A stretch of DNA of 64,000 bases from Chthoniobacteraceae bacterium. Its GTDB lineage: Bacteria; Verrucomicrobiota; Verrucomicrobiia; Chthoniobacterales; Chthoniobacteraceae. Location of the stretch: assembly GCA_947471505.1 (NCBI GenBank), contig CANIWM010000005.1, forward strand, positions 1 through 64,000, given 5' to 3'. Below are positions 36,374-63,702 of the stretch, one piece after another. Position 1 is the stretch's first letter. Each line of letters opens with the position of its first letter. The translations under genes were made by a program, and so were the position numbers. Below the pieces are notes generated by a model that did not search any database, was not told where the DNA came from, and saw only the letters and a program-made list of their open reading frames with translations.

Positions 36374-39300
36374 TTACGGCGTCCGCACCGCGCGGTAGAA
36401 TCGGCGCGTCTGCGAGCCCGGCGTGTCCGTCACATCGAGTGTGGTACCGGTGGCTTTGATGGCGGGGCCGAGATTGGTCCACGTCGCGTCGGAGAGTTCG
36501 TTCTTAAACTGCGGCTGATATGTGAAATCCGGCGTGGTCGTGATGCTGAACGTGATCACGCCGCCGCTCAGCGTCGCTGTCGCGGTCGGCAGCGCGAGCG
36601 TTGCGGTGTTGGTGGTGCCGGCGCTTGGGCTCGCGAGGAAATCGACCGTTGCGCCGCCGTCGGGCGTGAGGCCCTGGCTGATGTTTTTGACCTGCGCGCC
36701 GAAAGTTACCGAGTCCACGACGGTGCCGTCCGGGGCGCGGAGCGTGAGGGTTTCGCCACTGTTGCTGAGTTTGAATGGGACGTGGAGCTGGCCGCTGCCG
36801 GTGTTTTGAATCGTCTCGTCGTCGGCCCACACGAGCAGGCGCCCGGAGGGGGCGATGGCGTAGCCGCTCGGGATAATGTAGGTGGTGATGGAATCGCTGA
36901 GGCTCCATCCGGCGAGGCTCACGGTGCTGGCGGTCGGGTTGTAGAGTTCCAGCCAGTCTTCACTATCGCCATCGGCGGGGTCGAAGTCGTGGGCAGCGTT
37001 GTCGGCGAGCCATTCGTTGATGCGCAGTGCGGCCCAAGCGTTCGTGCCGGTGAAGTTGACGCTGAGCGTAGTGCTGCCGGTCAGCGTGCCTGCGGTATTG
37101 TAGGTGGAGATAACGAGCGGATTTGTGCCACTGGCCACGGGCACGCTGGCACTCCATGCGGTCACCGTCGTCCAAGTAAGGGGCAGTTCGAGCCCGTTAA
37201 AGGTGATCGTTTTTGCGCTGACGGGCGCGGTGCCGGTGATGGTGATGGGGCTGACCGTCGTGCTGCGCGGGTTCGAGCCACTGACGGTGAAGGAGGCGGC
37301 GACGGTGTTGAGCTGGTTTTGCACATAGGTTACGCGCAGGTTAATCCACTCTGGGATGCCGCCGGTGATCGCGGGGTTGCCGCCCTGGGACACCTTGTAG
37401 TAGTCGCTGGCCACAAACGGCGAAACCACGGCGACGCCGTTGGCGATGTAGCCGTTGTATCGCTGCGTCAAACGTGTGGACACGGCGGTCCCGCTGAAAA
37501 ATGTGTTGAGTGAATCACTCAGAGCACGCCAGTAGGGGCGGACGAGCGCGGGGGTATCGAACATTTTCTGGACGGGCGCATCGATGCCCGATGCGAAGAG
37601 CGGCTCGATAGAGGGGTGGTGGTTGGAATTGTCGGCACCGAGGCCCACGTCCATGTCGTTGGTGATGACTTTCCAGCCGCTGAGCGTGGGTTTGTAGAGA
37701 TAGGCGTTTTTGTCGTTTGGGTTCCCAAATGTGTCCCAATATGCGCACAGGTCGGCGAAGGCAAAGTTGCCCATCCATTGGTCCACATCCACGAGCGCTT
37801 TGACTCCGTCCACGTAGTCCGCGCCGCTGCCCGTGATGTTCGAGGCGGTGACGAGGTTGAAGATGTCTGCGAAGTCGTTTTCGCTGCCTTCCGAGGAGCG
37901 CGGCATCCAGCACCAGCGGTAGCGGGCGGTTTTGTAAACTCCGCCCGTGGTGGTGAAGGGCAGCAGAGAGTTGAAGTCCCCGGCCAGCACGGCGTTGGTG
38001 TCGCTGGTTTCGTCCCAGCGGCTGGTCTTGATCAGTCGGCCCTTCGTGTCGTCCGAGAAGCTGGAAGCGAGATGGTAGCCGCCGGGCTGATGGCAGTCGT
38101 GATAAATGGGAGCAGCGCTGGAAGCTGGAATCCGTCTCACACCGTTGACCACGAGATGCACGTCTCGTCGGTGGAGCGTCGGTAGCTTCATTTGCTCCAG
38201 CATCCAGTGCATGAGCTGCTCGCGCTGGTTGGTGGTGTCGCGAATCGGGTAATCAAGCACCGCTTCGTCCTCGCCCATTAGCGGCTCGCCCGGCGGGAGA
38301 TCGATGTCGTAGCCGATGATCGCAGTCGCTGGGTTGTTCCCCGTATTATCGGAAAACTGGGCAAAATGCGCGCCGGTGCCGTAAAAGACCCGACTGCTGT
38401 TGTGCAGGAAAGTAATCGGGAAGGCTTCGTTACTCTTGCTCAACCGCGCCGACCAAGCGGTCAGCGTGGAACTCGTGATCCACATCGTGTAAGTGCCGAA
38501 CGCCCCCGTCGGCAGAGTGTCGCCGACACGCGCCAAGCATTCCGAGGTAGGAGGGAAAACTGCGCTGGCCGCAGCGGGATCGGTGGCCGTGATCGTGAAC
38601 CCGAGCAGTGCGCCTGCGGACTGCGCGGGGACTGTGCCGGTGAAAATTCCGTCGCCTGCGAGGAGATCGCCGCCTGTGCCGGAGTCGAGCATCGCGATGC
38701 TGGTGAGCGTCGCCGACGGGTCGAGGCGATATTTTAGCGTGACGCTCGCGACGCCGTCCGGGTCCGCTACCCGCGCGAAGACACGGAAAGGGAAACCGGC
38801 CACGGGGAGCACGGGAAGATGGGTGACGTCGGTGATCGAAGGCGCGGCGTTGGCGACGGCACGGCTATTAGCAGCGGCGGGCGTGCCGAGATTTTTCGGC
38901 ACCGTCAGCGCGCCGTATGCCTCCAGCCCTCCACCGCGCAGGCGGAGCAGGAAATCCGGCGAACCGTGAAGCCAGCGGGCGCGGGCGCGAAGCGTGGCGG
39001 TGGAGCCGGTGGCGATGGTTGCGGTCAGCGACGTCCGCACATGGTTTGGCATCGAGTCGCCGCGGCCCAGTGCGACGAGGCGCAGCGATTTGGTGCCGGC
39101 AAAGCCCGAGTTTTCGATGACGGAGCGATTGTGCGTGCCCTGCACGAGCCATGAGCCGATGCCGCTTTCAAAGCCGCCATTGGTCACGACATTTGCACCG
39201 CCGGAGGGCGTCGCCTCCACTTCATCGAGCAACGCTTCGCCCTTATTGAGCAAGCATGCGTCGAGGCGATTGGCGAGGGCGGTCGCGTTGAGGTTCACAT

Positions 39301-41827
39301 GGTCCAAAACGCCGGTCGTCTCCACGAGTGTCCACGGCGCTTTCGCCGTGTCATCGCTATCGAGCCAGAGCGGCGTGGCGATGTCGCGCGGGTCGGAAAG
39401 CTCCAGACTGCTCCCACCGCCGTCGGCCCACTGCGACCACCGGGACGCGTCGGCGTAGCTCACTTCATCAACCGCGGCAAAATACGTGAGCGGACCGGGA
39501 ATCGTTACGGGTTGGCCGAGCACGACCTCTTCGCCGCTGCCGGAGAGCGTTCCCGTGAAAGGCCCAAAGACCAGTGCCGCCGAAAGCCCCGGATGATTCG
39601 CGAGAAGACGAGCAGGGTTTTTTGCCACGACAACGTAGCCATTGGCTGCGATGCTCGCACCCGCTGGAAAGGTAAACGAAACACCGTCGCTGATGCGCCA
39701 GCCGGCGAGGCTCACCGCGCTGCCACTGAGATTGCGCAGCTCCAGCCACTGATCCTCGGCGTCGCCGGTGATCGGGTGAAAATACAGCTCATTGAACACC
39801 ACCGGTCCACGCGCGGCGGCGGAGTTTGTCGCGCCGGGTGTGGCGCTGTTCAGGCGGCGAACCAACCCTTCGCCGTCCGGCGTGCGACCGCTCGCAGTGT
39901 CGGGCAGTTGGCCGCGAAAGCGTACGGCGTCGAGCACGCGGGTTTGTGCCGCGTTTGTGAAATACACCGTCTCGCCTTCCGCGCTCAGCCCAAAGAGCAT
40001 CTGCGTTTGCGTGAAGCTCACGCGTCCCCGAGGCGGCAGGACGGTGCCGCCGGGGATTTGGAATTTGCCCAGCAGCGCCACGTCGTCCGAGATCCAGCAT
40101 CCGCTCACATCGATGCTGAGCGGACTGCTATTAAACAACTCGATGAAGTCCGTGCCCACCGTCGAGTGGGAGAGGATTTCGTTGATAAGCACATGATCCT
40201 GCGGACTGGCTGGCAGCCCTTCCGCGACGCCCGGCGAACCGCCGATGACCGCACTCGCACTCCACGCGCGCGCATCACCCTCACCGTAGCTGGGCCGCGT
40301 GAGCACCCGCGAATGTCCCGCGCCATCCGCCGCCGCTGGCCACTCCGGACCATCGTTCCACACCGCTTCGAGCACGATGGCATCGTTCGCCCGGCGCAGT
40401 CGCAGCTTGCCGCCCTCATTGGAAAGTGCGCCGGTGAACGGCCCAAGCACGCCCGTGATTCCATACACCGTCTGCACGTCCGCAGGCACTGCGGCCACTA
40501 CGAGAAATCCCTGCGCCGGGATGCTCGTGCCGGGCGGGAACGCATAGTCCACATCGCTCGAAATCCTCCAGCCCGTGAGGTCTTCCGGCCACGGGTTCGT
40601 GTTATAGAGCTCGATAAATTCAAGGTTCTTCCCATCGAGCCGCGTCGCGGGGTGCGTATGGAGTTCGGAGAAAATGATCGGCGTCTTTTTACTGGAGACC
40701 GCCAGCGGTTCGCCAGTGCGCTGCCAGCGATTGGGATACACCACGCTCACCGTCGCCGCAGTGGAAGTCGTGCTCCCAGCTAGATTCGTGATGGTCACGG
40801 TGTAGCTCCCCGCACTCGCCAGCGACGCGGTATTGATCGCGAGGGTGGAAGCGGTCGCGCCAGAAATCGGCACACCGTCTTTCAGCCATTGGTACGTCAT
40901 CGACGTCTGACTGGTCGCCGTGACACTGAGGATGGTGCTCTCGCCAAACACGATTGATTGCGACTGCGGCGGAGTCGCGACGACGGGCTCATTACCAAAG
41001 CGCGTGACCGTCAGATTCTCCACCCGCCCGTCCGCGGTGGCTCCGGGGCTCAGCGCGTTTCCACCATTTTGCATCCGCAGCTCGATGTAGCGCGCCGCAT
41101 TTTCCCACGTGATATTCCACGGCCCGAGATTCGAGGTGCTCCCACCCGCGACCGTCACCACAGCGCTCGCGGTGACGGGCGAAACGGTCTCATCAATCGT
41201 GAGGGCGACGGTATAGTTCGTTGCGTAAAGGTCTGGGCTCTTTAACACCGCCGCCGCACCGGCGCCGACGAGCGTACCGTCCGCATAGGTGTTCCACCCG
41301 CCGTTGCCTCGAACGAAAAAGCCGACGTCGGTCGAGGCGTTGGTCGGGCCGACGTGATTGGCGGTATCGCCAAGGTCCAGCGACACCCAAGTATCGGTGA
41401 TATTGGTGCTGCTGCGTTGGATGTTCGCGGTGAAACTGACGCTCCATTTTTTCCCAGCGACTTGCGGGCCAAAATCCGTCGAGAGCCGCACCGCCATTTG
41501 AGTGGGCGTCGTCGCATGGAACGTCCGCAGCAACAATGCGTCGCTCCCCGCAAAAGTGGCCGAGCTTTTCTCGATCAACGCGTCATTCGTCCCCGAGGCC
41601 CCGCTCGTCGGCAGCTCCGTGAAAGTCCCGCCCGTCAGCACGCCCGACTGCCGTGCCGGAATATCCACATTGATGTTCGTATCGTTCGCGCCGCCCGTGA
41701 TGGTGAACGGATCAGCAAGCACCACCGTATCCGCCCACGCGCTCGCGGAAAAAGCGAGCAGCGCGCAAGCAGCTTGAAGCGAGCGCCGGATGGCAGCGAA
41801 AGTGGAGATCGAAAATTCCGGGATCAT
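36374..41827 (-). CDS. Giant secreted protein with Ig, lamin-tail (LTD) and CotH-like domains
   Basis: An 1817-residue protein. A signal peptide covers residues 1-32 (after RRSLQAACALLAFSASAWA). Order: N-terminal beta-sandwich (about 35-275), Ig-like domain (about 280-365, with YQWLKDGVPISGAT), lamin-tail domains near 383-490, 545-640 and 675-775 (FIELYN, FIELFN, WLELRN with GWRIS), a carbohydrate-binding-like region (880-980), a CotH spore-coat-kinase-like region (about 1110-1510, with NDMDVGLGADNSNHHPS) and a fourth lamin-tail domain (about 1590-1720, DWLELYNP). The last 70 residues resemble the C-terminus of the two other giants here. Likely cell-surface or exopolymer-attached; the substrate of the kinase-like part is unknown. 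Confidence 0.9.
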   Translation of the reverse strand: MIPEFSISTFAAIRRSLQAACALLAFSASAWADTVVLADPFTITGGANDTNINVDIPARQSGVLTGGTFTELPTSGASGTNDALIEKSSATFAGSDALLLRTFHATTPTQMAVRLSTDFGPQVAGKKWSVSFTANIQRSSTNITDTWVSLDLGDTANHVGPTNASTDVGFFVRGNGGWNTYADGTLVGAGAAAVLKSPDLYATNYTVALTIDETVSPVTASAVVTVAGGSTSNLGPWNITWENAARYIELRMQNGGNALSPGATADGRVENLTVTRFGNEPVVATPPQSQSIVFGESTILSVTATSQTSMTYQWLKDGVPISGATASTLAINTASLASAGSYTVTITNLAGSTTSTAATVSVVYPNRWQRTGEPLAVSSKKTPIIFSELHTHPATRLDGKNLEFIELYNTNPWPEDLTGWRISSDVDYAFPPGTSIPAQGFLVVAAVPADVQTVYGITGVLGPFTGALSNEGGKLRLRRANDAIVLEAVWNDGPEWPAAADGAGHSRVLTRPSYGEGDARAWSASAVIGGSPGVAEGLPASPQDHVLINEILSHSTVGTDFIELFNSSPLSIDVSGCWISDDVALLGKFQIPGGTVLPPRGRVSFTQTQMLFGLSAEGETVYFTNAAQTRVLDAVRFRGQLPDTASGRTPDGEGLVRRLNSATPGATNSAAARGPVVFNELYFHPITGDAEDQWLELRNLSGSAVSLAGWRISDGVSFTFPAGASIAANGYVVVAKNPARLLANHPGLSAALVFGPFTGTLSGSGEEVVLGQPVTIPGPLTYFAAVDEVSYADASRWSQWADGGGSSLELSDPRDIATPLWLDSDDTAKAPWTLVETTGVLDHVNLNATALANRLDACLLNKGEALLDEVEATPSGGANVVTNGGFESGIGSWLVQGTHNRSVIENSGFAGTKSLRLVALGRGDSMPNHVRTSLTATIATGSTATLRARARWLHGSPDFLLRLRGGGLEAYGALTVPKNLGTPAAANSRAVANAAPSITDVTHLPVLPVAGFPFRVFARVADPDGVASVTLKYRLDPSATLTSIAMLDSGTGGDLLAGDGIFTGTVPAQSAGALLGFTITATDPAAASAVFPPTSECLARVGDTLPTGAFGTYTMWITSSTLTAWSARLSKSNEAFPITFLHNSSRVFYGTGAHFAQFSDNTGNNPATAIIGYDIDLPPGEPLMGEDEAVLDYPIRDTTNQREQLMHWMLEQMKLPTLHRRDVHLVVNGVRRIPASSAAPIYHDCHQPGGYHLASSFSDDTKGRLIKTSRWDETSDTNAVLAGDFNSLLPFTTTGGVYKTARYRWCWMPRSSEGSENDFADIFNLVTASNITGSGADYVDGVKALVDVDQWMGNFAFADLCAYWDTFGNPNDKNAYLYKPTLSGWKVITNDMDVGLGADNSNHHPSIEPLFASGIDAPVQKMFDTPALVRPYWRALSDSLNTFFSGTAVSTRLTQRYNGYIANGVAVVSPFVASDYYKVSQGGNPAITGGIPEWINLRVTYVQNQLNTVAASFTVSGSNPRSTTVSPITITGTAPVSAKTITFNGLELPLTWTTVTAWSASVPVASGTNPLVISTYNTAGTLTGSTTLSVNFTGTNAWAALRINEWLADNAAHDFDPADGDSEDWLELYNPTASTVSLAGWSLSDSITTYIIPSGYAIAPSGRLLVWADDETIQNTGSGQLHVPFKLSNSGETLTLRAPDGTVVDSVTFGAQVKNISQGLTPDGGATVDFLASPSAGTTNTATLALPTATATLSGGVITFSITTTPDFTYQPQFKNELSDATWTNLGPAIKATGTTLDVTDTPGSQTRRFYRAVRTP

Positions 41828-42080
41828 TGATGACTCCCTATTGCACCGGGATCGGGCGTTCTAACAGGGAAACTTTGCAGACCTCCTCCCCCCTCCGGGG
41901 ATTGGTCCCGATAAATCGGGAAGGCCGCCATTCTACGAATCCGCCGAGGGCGCACTTCCAAGAACGCGCGTCGTTCGCCAGGCGACAACGCCACTCTCGG
42001 TACACCTGCGCGGAATCCACACCGAGGCTCGTTCCCAGCACGGAGCGACCTCCCGATTCTTTCAAAAATAGTGCAAAATC
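41828..42080. other. Intergenic region with a small hairpin, no gene seen
   Basis: Upstream of the LTD/CotH gene. The only structure noticed is TCCCGATAAATCGGGA at 41906-41921, a 7-bp perfect stem with a 2-nt loop. No promoter was convincing. With the repeat array that follows, this stretch from 41828 to 42673 is essentially non-coding. Confidence 0.5.
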
Positions 42081-42374
42081 GTGAACAGTGCGTGCCATCC
42101 CCCGGACACGGCGTGTCACGCCGTGAACAGTGCACGCCATCCCCCGGACACGGCGTACCACGCCAAGAACGGGGCGCGCCACCACCCGGACACGGCACGC
42201 CACGCCGTGAACACGGCGTGCCACTACCCGGACACGGCACGCCACGCCGTGAACACGGCGTGCCACCACCCGGACACGGCGCGCCACGCCGTGAACAGGG
42301 CGTGCCACCACCCGGACACGGCGCGCCACGCCGTGAACAGTGCGTGCCACTACCCGGACACGGCACGCCACCGC
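42081..42374. repeat. Seven tandem 42-bp units built of interlocking hairpins
   Basis: Units start at 42081, 42123, 42165, 42207, 42249, 42291 and 42333, each 42 bp, differing by a few substitutions. Within a unit GGCGTGCC pairs with GGCACGCC across a short loop holding CCCGGACAC, and across unit borders CACGCCGTG pairs with CACGGCGTG around AA. The array can therefore fold into alternating hairpins. Because 42 is a multiple of three, several frames stay open, giving 14-residue peptide repeats, but base differences do not favour any one frame. There are no unique spacers, so it is not a CRISPR array. Confidence 0.85.
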
Positions 42375-42521
42375 CCGGACGAGTTTCGCCCCGCCAACAG
42401 AGAGAACCCCCAAGAAGGGGGGCCGCCCCGCCCCCTTGAAGTCCAGCGCCACCCCGCCCCGCCCGCCGCTTTTTCCCTTTCGACAAGCCCCAGCGCCCCC
42501 ATTACCCCCCTGCGCGAACAC

Positions 42522-42626
42522 ATGACCGACCTCGCCAAACGCTTCCTCCGCGCCAAACCCGAAGACCTCGAAACGCTAGACTCCATGAACCGCGCCCACC
42601 AGGACGGGGAGAAGTTCAGCGTGTAG
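42522..42626 (+). CDS. Possible 34-residue ORF after the repeat array
   Basis: An ATG at 42522 opens a short charged peptide (MTDLAKRFLRAKPEDLETLD) ending at the TAG 42624-42626, directly before a palindromic repeat. It looks helical and protein-like, unlike the Pro/His-rich translation of the repeat array in the same frame upstream, but it is short and has no clear ribosome-binding site. Confidence 0.3.
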   Translation: MTDLAKRFLRAKPEDLETLDSMNRAHQDGEKFSV

Positions 42627-42628
42627 CG

Positions 42629-42672
42629 CCCGAATGCCGCGATTGCCGGTCGTGGCTGACGCGGCGTTCGGG
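42629..42672. repeat. Palindromic dispersed repeat at the 3' end of the beta-strand-repeat gene
   Basis: CCCGAATGCCGCG (42629-42641) pairs with CGCGGCGTTCGGG (42660-42672) with one G-T pair, forming a 13-bp stem. The first 29 bp match 63666-63694 at 26 positions. It lies next to the stop at 42674 of the minus-strand gene. Only three T residues follow on the plus strand, so it is not a classical intrinsic terminator, although it may act as a 3' mRNA structure. Confidence 0.6.
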
Positions 42673-42673
42673 T

Positions 42674-45600
42674 TTAGTTCGACTGGACTTGGAGTCGCAG
42701 GAAGTTTCTCGCCGGAGTGCCGGGGGTGAATGTGTAGAAAATGGTGGTCGCGTTGTTCACGTAAGAACCGCCGGTGACTTCCGCCCAGACGTCGGTGATG
42801 CCGAGGTCGGTGGAGTCCTGGATGGCGTAGGTGAGGCCGCTGGTGCCGACACGTTTTGTGAAGCTGAGGGTGTTGCCGCTGAGTGTGCCGACGGACGGGT
42901 TTGGCACGGTGGGGTCTTGGCCGGATATGGCGTATTCTACGAGGTTGCGGATGCCGTCGTTGTCAGCGTCGTCGTTCGGGCCGCGCTTGTCCACCGGGAC
43001 GATGCCGCCTGCGAAGGTGCCGGTGATCCATGTGGAGAATGTCGTGATCGTGCTGGCGGTGAGGTAGCCGCTTGCATTCAGTGCGAACGAGTGGAAGCCG
43101 GGTGCGGAGATGAGCGCGAGTTGTGTGGGTGTGAGGCCGCTGCTGGTGGTGCCGAAGCGGAGCGACGTGCCGGATACGAAAGTGCCCGTGATGCTCAGGG
43201 TGCCGCCGGTCCAGTCGATTGCGCTGCTGTTTGCAAAGGCGAGAGCGGCACCGGCACCGAGATTGATTTTGGCGCTGCTGGTGATGTCGAGGGGGCCGAG
43301 GTTGTCGGTGAAGGTCGCGGCGTTGAGGGTGGCGTTGCCGATGATGATATCGGAGGTGCTGGAGATTACGTTGCTGGCACCGAGGGCGAGCGTGCCGCCG
43401 TTCACGGTGGTGTCGCCGGTGTAGGTGTTCGCGCCGCTGAGGGTGAAGGTGCCCGCGCCGCTCTTGGTCAGGCCGAAGTTGTTTCCGTTCGTTGTCCCCG
43501 GCATTGCGGAGGCCGCTACCGAGCCACTCGCACTGCCACCGAGATTGCCTGAAAACGTATAGTTGCCGCTGTTGTTGATCGTCAGCGTTGCCGCAGCGGA
43601 GATATCGCTGTTGACGACGCGTTGGATTCTCAAGGCGGCTTTCGCTCCGCTTCTTACGATATTGGTCAACCCGGCGAGCTGTTGGTTGAATCCGTTTAGA
43701 TTCAGCTCTGCAAACCGGCCGGTGCCACCGCCGTTCCCGCCATCAATGGTCAGCACCGTGGTCGTCGGCAGCGCGTTTTGGATTCCGAGCTTCACAATGA
43801 TCTGGTTCTCTCCGGCAGTGGTCGTTCCGTCCGTGGAGGCCGTCGTGTTCAGCAGCGTGCTGCCGGTATAGGTGCTTTGCGCGCCCAGATAGACGGTGGA
43901 CAAGGCGTTTTGAGCGACGCTGCTCAAGAACGTGACATTGCCGCTCCCGGCCAGCACGCTGTCGAGCGTAAGCGTGGAGACCACTCCTCCGCCTGGATTG
44001 TTTGTGGGCGCGCTGATGGTGGCAGTGGTTCCACTGCTGGCCACTGTGATGGGCGCATCGATAACCACGCCATCCAAGTTGGGTTGCAGAACGGTCCCGC
44101 CAGCCAGCGTCACGCCGAAGGTGGTGAGTAAGGCCGACGTGTTGTCGATGGCCAGCGCGCCAGTGCTGACGATAGTGGTGCCCGTGAAAGTATTCACGCC
44201 GGATAATGTGAGCGTGCCCGTGCCGGTCTTGGTCAGCGAGCCCGTGCCGGCGATGGAACCATTTACGGTCAGCGTTTGCGACGCGCCGACACTGACGGCG
44301 GCATTCGCGCTCAAACTCACGTCATTCGCGAGTGTGCAGCTCGCGGTGTTGGACAAGCTCCCGCCATTCAAAATCAGCCGTCCGGTGCCCAGAGCCGAGT
44401 TGTCGTTTGCCACCAGCGTGCCCGCGCTGACGGTTGTGTCGCCGCTGAAGGTGTTCGCAGCCTCCAGCGCCACGGTTCCCGCGCCATTGAGCGTGAGGCC
44501 CGGATAGCCGCTGATTTTTCCGTTGAATGTTGCGGTGCGCCCCGTGGCCACACTCCAGTTACTGGGAACGACCAATTGCACCGGACAGTTCACCGTGAGA
44601 TTCTGCGTGGCCGTGGTCATGTCCACGCCCGAGTCATCGAGGCCCAGGGTCGCGGTGCCATTGATGGTCACCGTTCCGCCGGGGTTGACGATTTTGATGC
44701 CAGCCCAATCCTGATCGCTGGCGAGCGTGGCGGTGTTCGCGGCGGTGACCGTGCTGTTCCATACCGCCTGCTTGTAAATCCCGGGATCCACGCCGCCCAC
44801 CCAGCTCCCTCCGGCGTCGAGGTTCGTGGCGTTGTTGGCTTTCGTGATCGTCGTGGTGGTGGCGGCCAGAGTGCCCGGCCAGGATTGCACCTGCGCACCG
44901 CTGACGAGCACGATGTTGAAATCGGCGGGAGGATTGAGGTTGTTCGCGCCGAAATACATGCCCCAGCGGAAGGTCGTCGTTCCCGTGGGGCGGGAGTAGC
45001 TGCTGGAGGCATACAACACGCCATCGATCCACAGCTTGTAATTCAGACCGTCGTCGAGCACGCGGACATCGAAGCCGCCGCCATCGAAATCCTTCGCACT
45101 GCCATCGGGATTCGTGACGACCACATCGGTGCCAGTCCGATTATTCACGGTCAGCGAACCGTCGCCGCCCATGCTGAGCTGCACCGCCCAATCATTGTCG
45201 GTGTTCTTGAGTTGAAAGCAGCAATACCCCTGCTGGAGGCGGGCGATGGTGTAATGGGCCGTCCACTCGTAGGTTGTGTAATCGGTGTACTGCCACCCGC
45301 CGCCCATGAAAGCCTCGGTGTGCGAGGAGGTGCCTGCCCGCGTGGTGGCCGTATTCTCATCATCCACAAACACCCGGAGCACATGCGTATTCCCGTCGGT
45401 CTGAAACCACCGGGTGAAATCCGCGACATTCGTCGTGGACGTGTTGCACGCGACATGGATTCGACGGTCGGGGACCGAAATGGGACGATTGCCGTAGAGC
45501 CCTACCTCGACGGCGGCATTGTTGACATTGATCACCGACCCATTCACCGGGCCGGGGTCCGGGGCGTCCACATTCAGCGTAGGCAAAATCGCGCTCCACA

Positions 45601-47368
45601 GCGGGTTCGCCGGGCTGCCGGTATCCGTGTAGAGCACCGCCGGAACGGGCACGGTGAACTTCCACCCCGTGTTGATGGCGATTCCCTCGTAGCTGTTGCC
45701 TGAAGTATCCTTCACCGCGCCAGCGGGGATCAGCACGTAATAAGTTTGGTTCGTCGAGAGACTATTGGTCGGGTTGATGACCAATTGTCCGGTGCTGAAC
45801 GTCAGGCGGGAGGATGAGGCCACGTTGAATGATTCCACCACGTTGTCATTGCTGAACCTTCGCAGCTCAATGCTGCCGGTGCCCGCGACGACCGTTTCGT
45901 CAAAGGTCGCCACGAGGTCGGCGGCGGCCAACACGTTCGCAACATTGTTGACCGGCACGGTGCTGCGCAAAGTTGGCGGCGTCGTGTCGCCCGCGGCGGT
46001 GATCACATAGTCCAGATAGTTTCCGCTGACCTGCAATGCGCCAGTCTGATTCCAGGCGAGCGTGGGCACCGTGCCGAGCGTGAAGCCGCTGGCATTCGCC
46101 GGGCCGCTGCCATATTGAACCAAATGGAAGGTGCCATTGAACCCCAGCCCCGTCGGCAGGTTAATCGTCACCGCCCCCGCTCCGCCGCCGACAGTCAGGG
46201 CATTGTTCACCTTGATGGCAGCCGCGCTGGTGTAGGCAGACAGGGTTCCCACATTGACCATCGCCGTGCCGCTGAACGTGAGGCTGGAAACGGTGAGGTT
46301 ACTGGCACCCGGCGTCACCGAGCCGCCGGCGTTTACGGTGACGGCCGCATTCACCGTCCCGTCTCCGGCCAGAGTCGCTCCGTTGCTGACCGTGGTCGGG
46401 CTGGCGATGGTGCCGTCCACTTGCAAAGTGCCAGCGCTCACCGTGGTGCTGCCGGTATAGGTATTTGCTCCGCCGAGAGCGAGCGTGCCGCCACCCGTCT
46501 TGACCAGCGAACCGCCCCCGCTCAACACACCGTTGTAAGTGGTGGAGCTGTTATTGCCGCCCACGGTCAAAGCGATAGGAGTGCTGGCGTCGTTCAGCAG
46601 CGCGAGGTTCGAGCCCGTGCCTGCGCTGCTGGCGGCCAGCCCGCCAAAGGTGAATGCGTTTGCAGTAACGCCGCTGTCAAAGATCACAGCGGCATCCGCG
46701 CTCAGGGTCACGGTGCTGTTTTGCAACGCGAGTCGATTGTTGAGGTTCACGCGGGCACCTCCCGTGGCGCCGGCGCTGAAACTGGTGGTGCCGCTAAAGG
46801 TGTTGGCACTACCCAGATTGATAGTGCCGGTTCCGGAGGTATCCGGGCCGGCGAGGACGAGATTTCTGCCGACTGGCCCTGCAATCACAGCATTCACGGT
46901 CAAGGTTCTACCGGTGGTGTCGTTGGCGGCCGCCAGAAACGTATTGGCTCCGGTAATGCCCAACGTGAGCGTGTAGGGGCCGCTGCCACCCGCGATGACG
47001 ACGGAGGTTCCACCGGATTTCTGAACGATCCCTCCGAGGATGATGTTCGCGCCGAGCGTGAGGGTTTGCGACGCGCCGTTGATGTCGGCCACGTTGCTGC
47101 CGTTCACCCACGCCACATGAGCCAGACCGCTGCCTTGATCCCAGTTCTCCAAAGTGGTGTTCCAAGTGCCACTGACGCCGTCGCTGTTACCATCACCGTT
47201 GGCCACGATGTCCACGCTCCCGCCATCCCAATACCTCGTCGCGGCTTGCGCAGGGACGGACGCAAGCGCAAGCAGCCCCGACAGCGCGCCGATTTTCACG
47301 CATGTGAAAAATCCCGCAGTGAGTAAGCGGAGGCAGTTGATATGTTGGCGCATGGCGCTTGGTGTCAT
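42674..47368 (-). CDS. Giant secreted autotransporter-associated beta-strand repeat protein
   Basis: A 1564-residue protein starting at ATG 47368 (a second ATG at 47353 is possible); the frame upstream passes through an inverted repeat and is not coding. Signal peptide: ALSGLLALASVPAQA. The body has many passenger-type repeats of the form LTKTGTGTLTLSGVNTFTGT followed by T(V/I)(V/S)..GTL, typical of beta-helical adhesins. Around residues 450-560 is an SbsA/Ig-like domain (DTTPPTLRSTVPVNN). A region near 600-830 with DFTRWFQTDGNTHVLRVFVDDE looks like a separate lectin/sandwich domain. No C-terminal beta-barrel is present; the end matches the Verrucomicrobia tail (DADNDGIRNLVEYAISG, then NFLRLQV). 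Confidence 0.88.
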   Translation of the reverse strand: MTPSAMRQHINCLRLLTAGFFTCVKIGALSGLLALASVPAQAATRYWDGGSVDIVANGDGNSDGVSGTWNTTLENWDQGSGLAHVAWVNGSNVADINGASQTLTLGANIILGGIVQKSGGTSVVIAGGSGPYTLTLGITGANTFLAAANDTTGRTLTVNAVIAGPVGRNLVLAGPDTSGTGTINLGSANTFSGTTSFSAGATGGARVNLNNRLALQNSTVTLSADAAVIFDSGVTANAFTFGGLAASSAGTGSNLALLNDASTPIALTVGGNNSSTTYNGVLSGGGSLVKTGGGTLALGGANTYTGSTTVSAGTLQVDGTIASPTTVSNGATLAGDGTVNAAVTVNAGGSVTPGASNLTVSSLTFSGTAMVNVGTLSAYTSAAAIKVNNALTVGGGAGAVTINLPTGLGFNGTFHLVQYGSGPANASGFTLGTVPTLAWNQTGALQVSGNYLDYVITAAGDTTPPTLRSTVPVNNVANVLAAADLVATFDETVVAGTGSIELRRFSNDNVVESFNVASSSRLTFSTGQLVINPTNSLSTNQTYYVLIPAGAVKDTSGNSYEGIAINTGWKFTVPVPAVLYTDTGSPANPLWSAILPTLNVDAPDPGPVNGSVINVNNAAVEVGLYGNRPISVPDRRIHVACNTSTTNVADFTRWFQTDGNTHVLRVFVDDENTATTRAGTSSHTEAFMGGGWQYTDYTTYEWTAHYTIARLQQGYCCFQLKNTDNDWAVQLSMGGDGSLTVNNRTGTDVVVTNPDGSAKDFDGGGFDVRVLDDGLNYKLWIDGVLYASSSYSRPTGTTTFRWGMYFGANNLNPPADFNIVLVSGAQVQSWPGTLAATTTTITKANNATNLDAGGSWVGGVDPGIYKQAVWNSTVTAANTATLASDQDWAGIKIVNPGGTVTINGTATLGLDDSGVDMTTATQNLTVNCPVQLVVPSNWSVATGRTATFNGKISGYPGLTLNGAGTVALEAANTFSGDTTVSAGTLVANDNSALGTGRLILNGGSLSNTASCTLANDVSLSANAAVSVGASQTLTVNGSIAGTGSLTKTGTGTLTLSGVNTFTGTTIVSTGALAIDNTSALLTTFGVTLAGGTVLQPNLDGVVIDAPITVASSGTTATISAPTNNPGGGVVSTLTLDSVLAGSGNVTFLSSVAQNALSTVYLGAQSTYTGSTLLNTTASTDGTTTAGENQIIVKLGIQNALPTTTVLTIDGGNGGGTGRFAELNLNGFNQQLAGLTNIVRSGAKAALRIQRVVNSDISAAATLTINNSGNYTFSGNLGGSASGSVAASAMPGTTNGNNFGLTKSGAGTFTLSGANTYTGDTTVNGGTLALGASNVISSTSDIIIGNATLNAATFTDNLGPLDITSSAKINLGAGAALAFANSSAIDWTGGTLSITGTFVSGTSLRFGTTSSGLTPTQLALISAPGFHSFALNASGYLTASTITTFSTWITGTFAGGIVPVDKRGPNDDADNDGIRNLVEYAISGQDPTVPNPSVGTLSGNTLSFTKRVGTSGLTYAIQDSTDLGITDVWAEVTGGSYVNNATTIFYTFTPGTPARNFLRLQVQSN

Positions 47369-47450
47369 TCGTCGCTTGAAGTGAGTCGGACGCTGTATTC
47401 GCACAAAAAAGTCCGTCCGTCCGATCTTTTTCCGGACTGCGGGAACCGAG

Positions 47451-47613
47451 GGGTTTGATTGAAAGCGGAAAGTAGCTCGCGAGTCCCTTCGCGGCGAAAA
47501 ACCAAACGGCGAAGCCGCACGAGACAGAAGTGTCGCTTCGCGAGTAGTGTGGTGCCGCGAAGGGACTCGCGAGCTACTTTGCGCCTTGCACAATTCCACT
47601 TTTGATCAAACCC
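47451..47613. repeat. 163-bp nested inverted repeat (MITE-like or giant hairpin)
   Basis: A perfect 27-bp inverted repeat (47469-47495 with 47554-47580; both contain the word AGCTCGCGAGTCCCTTCGCG or its complement) is flanked by an outer 18-bp arm pair (47451-47468 with 47596-47613, 15 of 18 matching, GGGTTTGAT/ATCAAACCC). The right side has about 15 extra bases between inner and outer arms. The centre also holds GCGAAGC/GCTTCGC-type words. It lies between the sulfatase stop and the start of the beta-strand-repeat gene, and has no coding content. Confidence 0.8.
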
Positions 47614-63665: not shown

Positions 63666-63702
63666 CCCGAACGCCGCGATTGCCCGTCGTAGCTCGCGCT
63701 AC
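63666..63702. repeat. Dispersed palindromic repeat at the 3' end of the DUF2231 gene
   Basis: The 29 bp at 63666-63694 match 42629-42657 at 26 positions. It is followed by a 5-bp hairpin, GTAGC-TCGC-GCTAC (63689-63702), which overlaps the stop codon of the DUF2231 gene (63699-63701). The core CGTCGTAGCT is also at 15706-15715 in the transporter operon. Confidence 0.55.

Follow-up and report, generated by a model that had tools for sequence, protein, structure and literature searches.

The tandem array at positions 42081-42374 of the window, by which we mean the whole 64,000-nucleotide stretch of Chthoniobacteraceae DNA analysed here, belongs, as a displaced copy, to a class of arrays with a 21-bp step (periods of 21, 42 and 63 bp) that nearly always lies just upstream of the genes of one family, here termed F1. 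The link of these arrays to F1 genes is strong, and while their period and position are constant, the unit sequence is locus-specific and fast-changing. A preliminary description of this DNA had recognised the array and missed the 21-bp step, the further copies and the accompanying gene family.

The array is real and beyond chance. TRF places it at 42080-42371 (42 bp x 7.0 copies, 89% matches, 0% indels, score 416), in keeping with the seven 42-bp tandem units described at 42081-42374, and, judging by a second copy on contig C9, we assign it to the minus strand, on which the downstream gene is also encoded. Written in register, each 42-bp unit consists of two diverged 21-bp halves, of types GTGAACANNGCRYGCCACNAC and CCGGACACGGCRYGCCACGCC. 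TRF lists just one further row over the window, a 24-bp repeat in 2.2 copies at 44198-44250, which falls inside the gene at 42674-47599. As the preliminary description stated, two long minus-strand genes for giant secreted-type proteins bound the array: directly downstream on its sense strand, 36374-41827 encodes a 1817-aa secreted-type protein with CotH, four LTD stretches and Ig, and has an orthologue in the sister genome G032, and on the other side 42674-47599 encodes a 1641-aa autotransporter-type protein with PATR repeats and Big_5. The array had also been called open in multiple frames, which we confirm; two sense frames are open through it. A candidate translated leader, a 220-codon ORF with a TTG start (41824-42486, minus strand), runs through the array and shares an ATGA (41827-41824) with the CotH/LTD gene, its own TGA stop overlapping that gene's ATG. 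Such an overlap is automatic whenever a gene starts ATGA and the frame is open.

The palindromes reported within and between the units are present, but the hairpins are not perfect as had been claimed: the A-core/B-core pair carries 4, 2, 1, 0, 1, 1 and 1 mismatches in units 1 to 7 and is therefore exact in unit 4 only (1/7). Inside the array, GGCGTGCC and GGCACGCC occur three times each, CACGCCGTG five times and CACGGCGTG three times. The whole array folds far below dinucleotide shuffles (z -5.67 for DNA of the plus strand, z -5.56 for RNA of the minus strand), which break the tandem order; z is -2.3 and -1.8 (plus and minus strand) against a period-keeping column permutation and -0.4 and -1.1 against a period-keeping dinucleotide shuffle of the consensus. 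The best dyad reaches P = 0.080 in one test and 0.043 in another. Because of these period-keeping nulls and dyad P values, we regard the array as beyond chance but its hairpins as only marginally so. Rfam gave 0 matches over the window at gathering scores, and for the recombination or nucleoid role that had been suggested we found no evidence.

Further copies, for which the preliminary description had proposed a search, are present in the same genome (6.07 Mb, 153 contigs): an array on contig C9, 92% alike and with both flanks homologous, and a two-unit remnant on contig C16. A loose unit pattern gave 15 matches over this genome, 14 of them in the array loci of C5 (the contig of the window), C9 and C16, and its reversed control gave 0. 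The C9 array and the C16 remnant rule out an element unique to the window, and the assembly artefact that had been named as the refuting explanation is excluded by the C9 array with its homologous flanks and by array-bearing relatives. Copy numbers are 7.0 in the window, 5.8 at C9 and 7.0 in the related genome G025, three sites in two genomes. Between the array and the CotH/LTD gene, the flank at 42010-42080 (minus strand) is 87% identical to the C9 flank and 78% to the G025 flank; on the opposite side, 42366-42405 (minus strand) is common to C9, with 90% over 40 bp. At the level of the unit itself conservation is narrow: by DNA, 0/39 other genomes of the family match, and the unit pattern has 0 exact matches in the genome and viral collections, which rules out a broadly conserved unit sequence. 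A flank pattern found three stretches in the genome collection, one of them a Verrucomicrobiaceae MAG with a G025-type array; in the remaining two (Parachlamydiaceae, Enterococcus) TRF found no such array.

Judged against G032, where the orthologous flanking genes sit ~70 bp apart, the array lies in an insertion of ~800 bp, approximately 41828-42667. The C16 remnant is also missing in G032, with 32 bp between two matches there versus 132 in its own genome. The inserted window DNA holds the final 34 codons and stop of a gene that, from comparison with gene ends in relatives, is probably of restriction-modification/methylase type; this C-terminal tail (42522-42626, plus strand) is a decayed remnant. 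Beside it lies a terminator-like hairpin (42629-42665, plus strand) that is dispersed in this genome and its relatives, where it matches multiple other sites, including window positions 63666-63694. The C9 array is flanked on one side by a complete MmeI-type restriction-modification gene (L076 6651-9494) and on the other by a 237-aa gene for which Pfam gave no match. The 237-aa gene is an F1 member whose G025 orthologue (80% identity) has an array of like build at the equivalent place, with like flanks and largely different units. Because G025 has array and flanks at an orthologous gene, we take C9 as the probable older site and the window array as a displaced copy, carried with C9-like flanks and oriented to the CotH/LTD gene as the C9 array is to its F1 gene. 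G025 has a second array (L181 10700-10977, contig C84) with units resembling those of its C184 array; the gene behind it is not F1 and has a signal-peptide-like start, a parallel to the C9/C5 pair.

The 21-bp step recurs well beyond these copies. We surveyed 40 stretches of 20 kb (800 kb) with TRF, taken from the beginnings and interiors of 20 contigs among the 23 largest of the same genome, with C5, C9 and C16 left out, and counted as arrays those with at least 3 copies and a score of at least 100. Among the 14 arrays obtained, only periods 42 (six arrays) and 21 (two) recur, 8, 15, 36, 183, 264 and 276 being seen once each, and the 42- and 21-bp arrays differ in consensus unit. Extrapolating from the survey, we infer ~60 such arrays genome-wide. 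In 20 stretches from relatives (398 kb), two of four arrays had period 42, and in a TRF-free period scan 9/13 peaks fell at 21, 42 or 63. One 42-bp array (L171 12567-12793) has the ends of two convergent genes on either side and stands upstream of no gene, which contradicts a purely promoter-side role. A second unannotated protein family, encoded at L190 15639-16589 (316 aa) and L200 18629-19336 (235 aa), adjoins 42-bp arrays. An array-profile search (15/213 genomes), whose query favours a 7-residue period, served only for leads and for the mixed array set used here in dyad, period-keeping folding and G-U tests.

F1 comprises genes of ~230-240 aa, and its loci were collected by protein search alone, prompted by the similar build of genes beside several arrays. 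At the search threshold F1 genes occur in 7/387 genomes of the phylum (23 loci, of which 3 were dropped for <250 bp upstream). In 16 of the 20 testable loci the upstream DNA was more self-similar at a lag of 21n than the 95% level set by 386 control genes, and in 15/20 no other lag between 12 and 70 did better than 21n; the partial genes L234 and L247 are kept here, and without them 15/18 loci exceed the control level. Within the genus (10 genomes, 1/24 loci dropped, and leaving out search rows without a locus: C25, C57 and C105 of the genome itself and C71 and C70 of G028), 22/23 further testable loci were positive by both counts. Pooled, the signal of a 21-, 42- or 63-bp period is found at 38/43 F1 loci versus 19/386 controls (Fisher P 1.3e-34), in a comparison that is conservative since some control genes may carry arrays themselves and in which orthologues, and loci within one genus, are not independent; the relatives' genomes are mostly drafts.

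For measurements on the arrays themselves we used a set of 39 loci, from which L229, clearly negative, and L234, L236, L237, L243, L247, L257 and L269 are excluded; tests needing longer arrays took 37, 33, 35, 30 or 36 of them. The array ends a median of 126 bp (range 45-361) from the F1 ATG. Nine of the 39 genes (L258, L252, L274, L230, L240, L248, L250, L244 and L231) have a W-rich in-frame N-terminal extension, often MxWDxGxWDxGxWD, so that the true array-to-gene distance is shorter in those. Runs of 8 bp were also seen near F1 genes: the unit GGAGCGTC x16 at L174 1-127, the contig end at the start of C23, and further runs in L241 and L244. The scanned F1 proteins reached no Pfam or NCBIfam cut-off and matched nothing in PADLOC; relatives were absent from the viral collection (profiles), from plasmids and phages (single proteins) and, by profile, from PDB sequences, while similar proteins presumably occur in Bacteroidetes. 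The C-terminal half looks fibronectin type III-like, an assignment of our own for which Pfam support is weak (one associated protein, E 4.8e-4, below cut-off). An AlphaFold model of a G025-type F1 protein from its single sequence (mean pLDDT 39.5) was too poor for structure search.

Unit sequences turn over fast. Paralogues within one genome that are 86% and 88% identical in protein have array likenesses of 0.46 and 0.54, against a background of 0.47 (sd 0.05), and a pair at 81% reaches 0.52. For orthologues the likeness is 0.97, 1.00 and 0.86-0.90 at 94%, 94% and 86% identity, with 0.63 for the C9/G025 orthologues (80%); a cross-species pair at 89% identity has 0.73. Across Verrucomicrobiota, almost every F1 gene may possess a private 21-bp-step repeat that is swapped for an unrelated one at duplication, with period and placement selected and sequence free or actively diversified, and the window would hold an array moved out of this setting; we give this general picture a chance approaching, though short of, even.

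The arrays have a strand bias. In 35 of them, stop trinucleotides number 8.7 per kb in sense versus 20.6 in antisense (P 9e-4), and 2.17 sense frames are open versus 1.31 after column permutation (P 1e-6); the 200 bp ahead of the arrays have no such asymmetry (16.7 vs 16.8 per kb), and the A/C-rich leader between array and gene has a mild depletion of its own (17.0 vs 25.0 per kb). At C9 an ORF of 135 codons crosses the array and ends just ahead of the F1 ATG. Because stop depletion is confined to the sense strand and because of the ATGA overlap, we tentatively prefer a translated, hairpin-prone leader array that controls the downstream gene, the window copy standing before the CotH/LTD gene; a DNA-binding array and an inert passenger follow closely, and we would not call this leader probable. 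The gene behind the array would be transcribed together with it as a leader that is translated at least in part. Slippage by a 21-bp unit, being seven codons, would alter leader length and keep the frame, and ribosomes crossing the hairpin-prone leader would determine how strongly the downstream gene is expressed. The window copy, whose leader ORF ends in the ATGA overlap, would then place the CotH/LTD gene under leader control, or else be inert. Against a translated leader count the lack of excess variation at any codon position (0/35 arrays, and likewise the window array), the loss of the open-frame effect in dinucleotide shuffles of consensus units (2.86 vs 2.84), the arrays at L190 and L200, beside non-F1 genes, whose sense strand has no open frame, the placement at L171, and one F1 array without an open frame on either strand. 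Nor does the leader reading offer a reason for a step of 21 over other multiples of three. Coding on the plus strand (heptapeptides such as VNTACHYPDTARHA) was rejected: at C9 and G025 the frame is open with an ATG, which is replaced by ATC in the window; the window also has an in-frame TAG, and codon-position bias is absent.

That lost start codon and the TAG also fit a minisatellite without function here, produced by slippage or unequal exchange, whose window copy, lacking an F1 gene and adjoining a gene remnant, would have come along as a passenger of the insertion with its decayed gene tail. Pooled over 30 arrays, units resemble their neighbours more than they resemble distant units and are more diverged at the edges, as expected from tandem duplication with homogenisation, which bears out the earlier proposal of a slippage product as far as amplification is concerned. 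Such a minisatellite leaves unexplained both the 21n arrays at 38/43 F1 genes and the single favoured period, and we consider it unlikely, if well short of negligible. Slightly lower still we rate a DNA operator array, in which dyad sites every two helical turns would seat a dimeric protein side by side, each locus having its own site. Dyads are significant (P <= 0.05) in 16/37 F1 arrays, palindromes with no centre or a short one, for example ACCACGCGTGGT, are kept between orthologues, and mismatches at the dyads are symmetric (G-T 24, A-C 29 in F1 arrays), which fits duplex DNA and not RNA; but the other 21/37 arrays have no significant dyad, the A/T signal at the half-period is absent (z 0.0), the depletion of stops affects one strand, and near-identical paralogues would require unrelated binding specificities.

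The same mismatch counts weigh against a structured RNA array, for example a regulatory or antitoxin RNA of the type III toxin-antitoxin kind. Its position upstream of a protein gene is suitable, and at period 42 the arrays fold more stably than their column permutations (z < -2 on a strand in 9/16). Folding of 21-bp arrays is no better than chance (2/11), an excess of G-U over A-C is absent at dyads both in the mixed array set (22 vs 16) and in F1 arrays (24 vs 29), covariation between units is weak (9/33 F1 arrays), units are unrelated between 86-88% identical proteins, and no toxin family matches. A structured RNA is accordingly improbable, and the mRNA structure proposed in the preliminary description gains no specific support. 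The translated leader remains our preferred, if tentative, reading.

Bacterial tandem repeats are usually taken as markers or noise. Here a 21-bp period recurs with unrelated sequences ahead of one uncharacterised gene family, across families of the phylum, so that what is conserved (step, place and a stop-poor sense strand) is separable from what is not (sequence), and this gives a direct experimental handle, namely step, copy number or frame against output of the downstream gene. If true, this would be an undescribed, lineage-wide class of gene-linked arrays, of which the window holds one moved before a different gene. In the literature searched, mainly its freely accessible part, we found no account of such 21-bp-step gene-linked arrays, nor in the accessible portions of PMC4210602 and PMC4060949.

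The window array differs from a CRISPR array in that its units are contiguous and 89% alike, with spacers absent. Type III toxin-antitoxin loci (ToxIN, CptIN, TenpIN) have short tandem repeats immediately upstream of a protein gene, and a tandem array likewise stands just upstream of a protein gene at 38/43 F1 loci and, in the window, of the CotH/LTD gene; unlike them, the F1 proteins scanned match no toxin or defence model, the unit of F1 arrays does not co-evolve with the protein, and the RNA signature is absent. Bacterial minisatellites, or VNTRs, show head-to-tail units, edge decay and similarity of neighbours, and the window and F1 arrays are likewise head-to-tail, homogenised and decayed at the edges; unlike them, the 21n arrays combine one favoured period with unrelated sequences at one gene family. 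PARCELs, according to the accessible portion of PMC2996958, are tandem repeats with DNA dyad symmetry, dispersed within genomes, whose unit is coding, 25 residues (75 bp) long and carries a conserved motif. The window array shares with them tandem repetition with dyad symmetry and dispersal in the genome and differs by a period of 42 bp, that is 2 x 21 bp, a seven-codon step, by the absence of a unit sequence common to the arrays and by coding that is at most putative.
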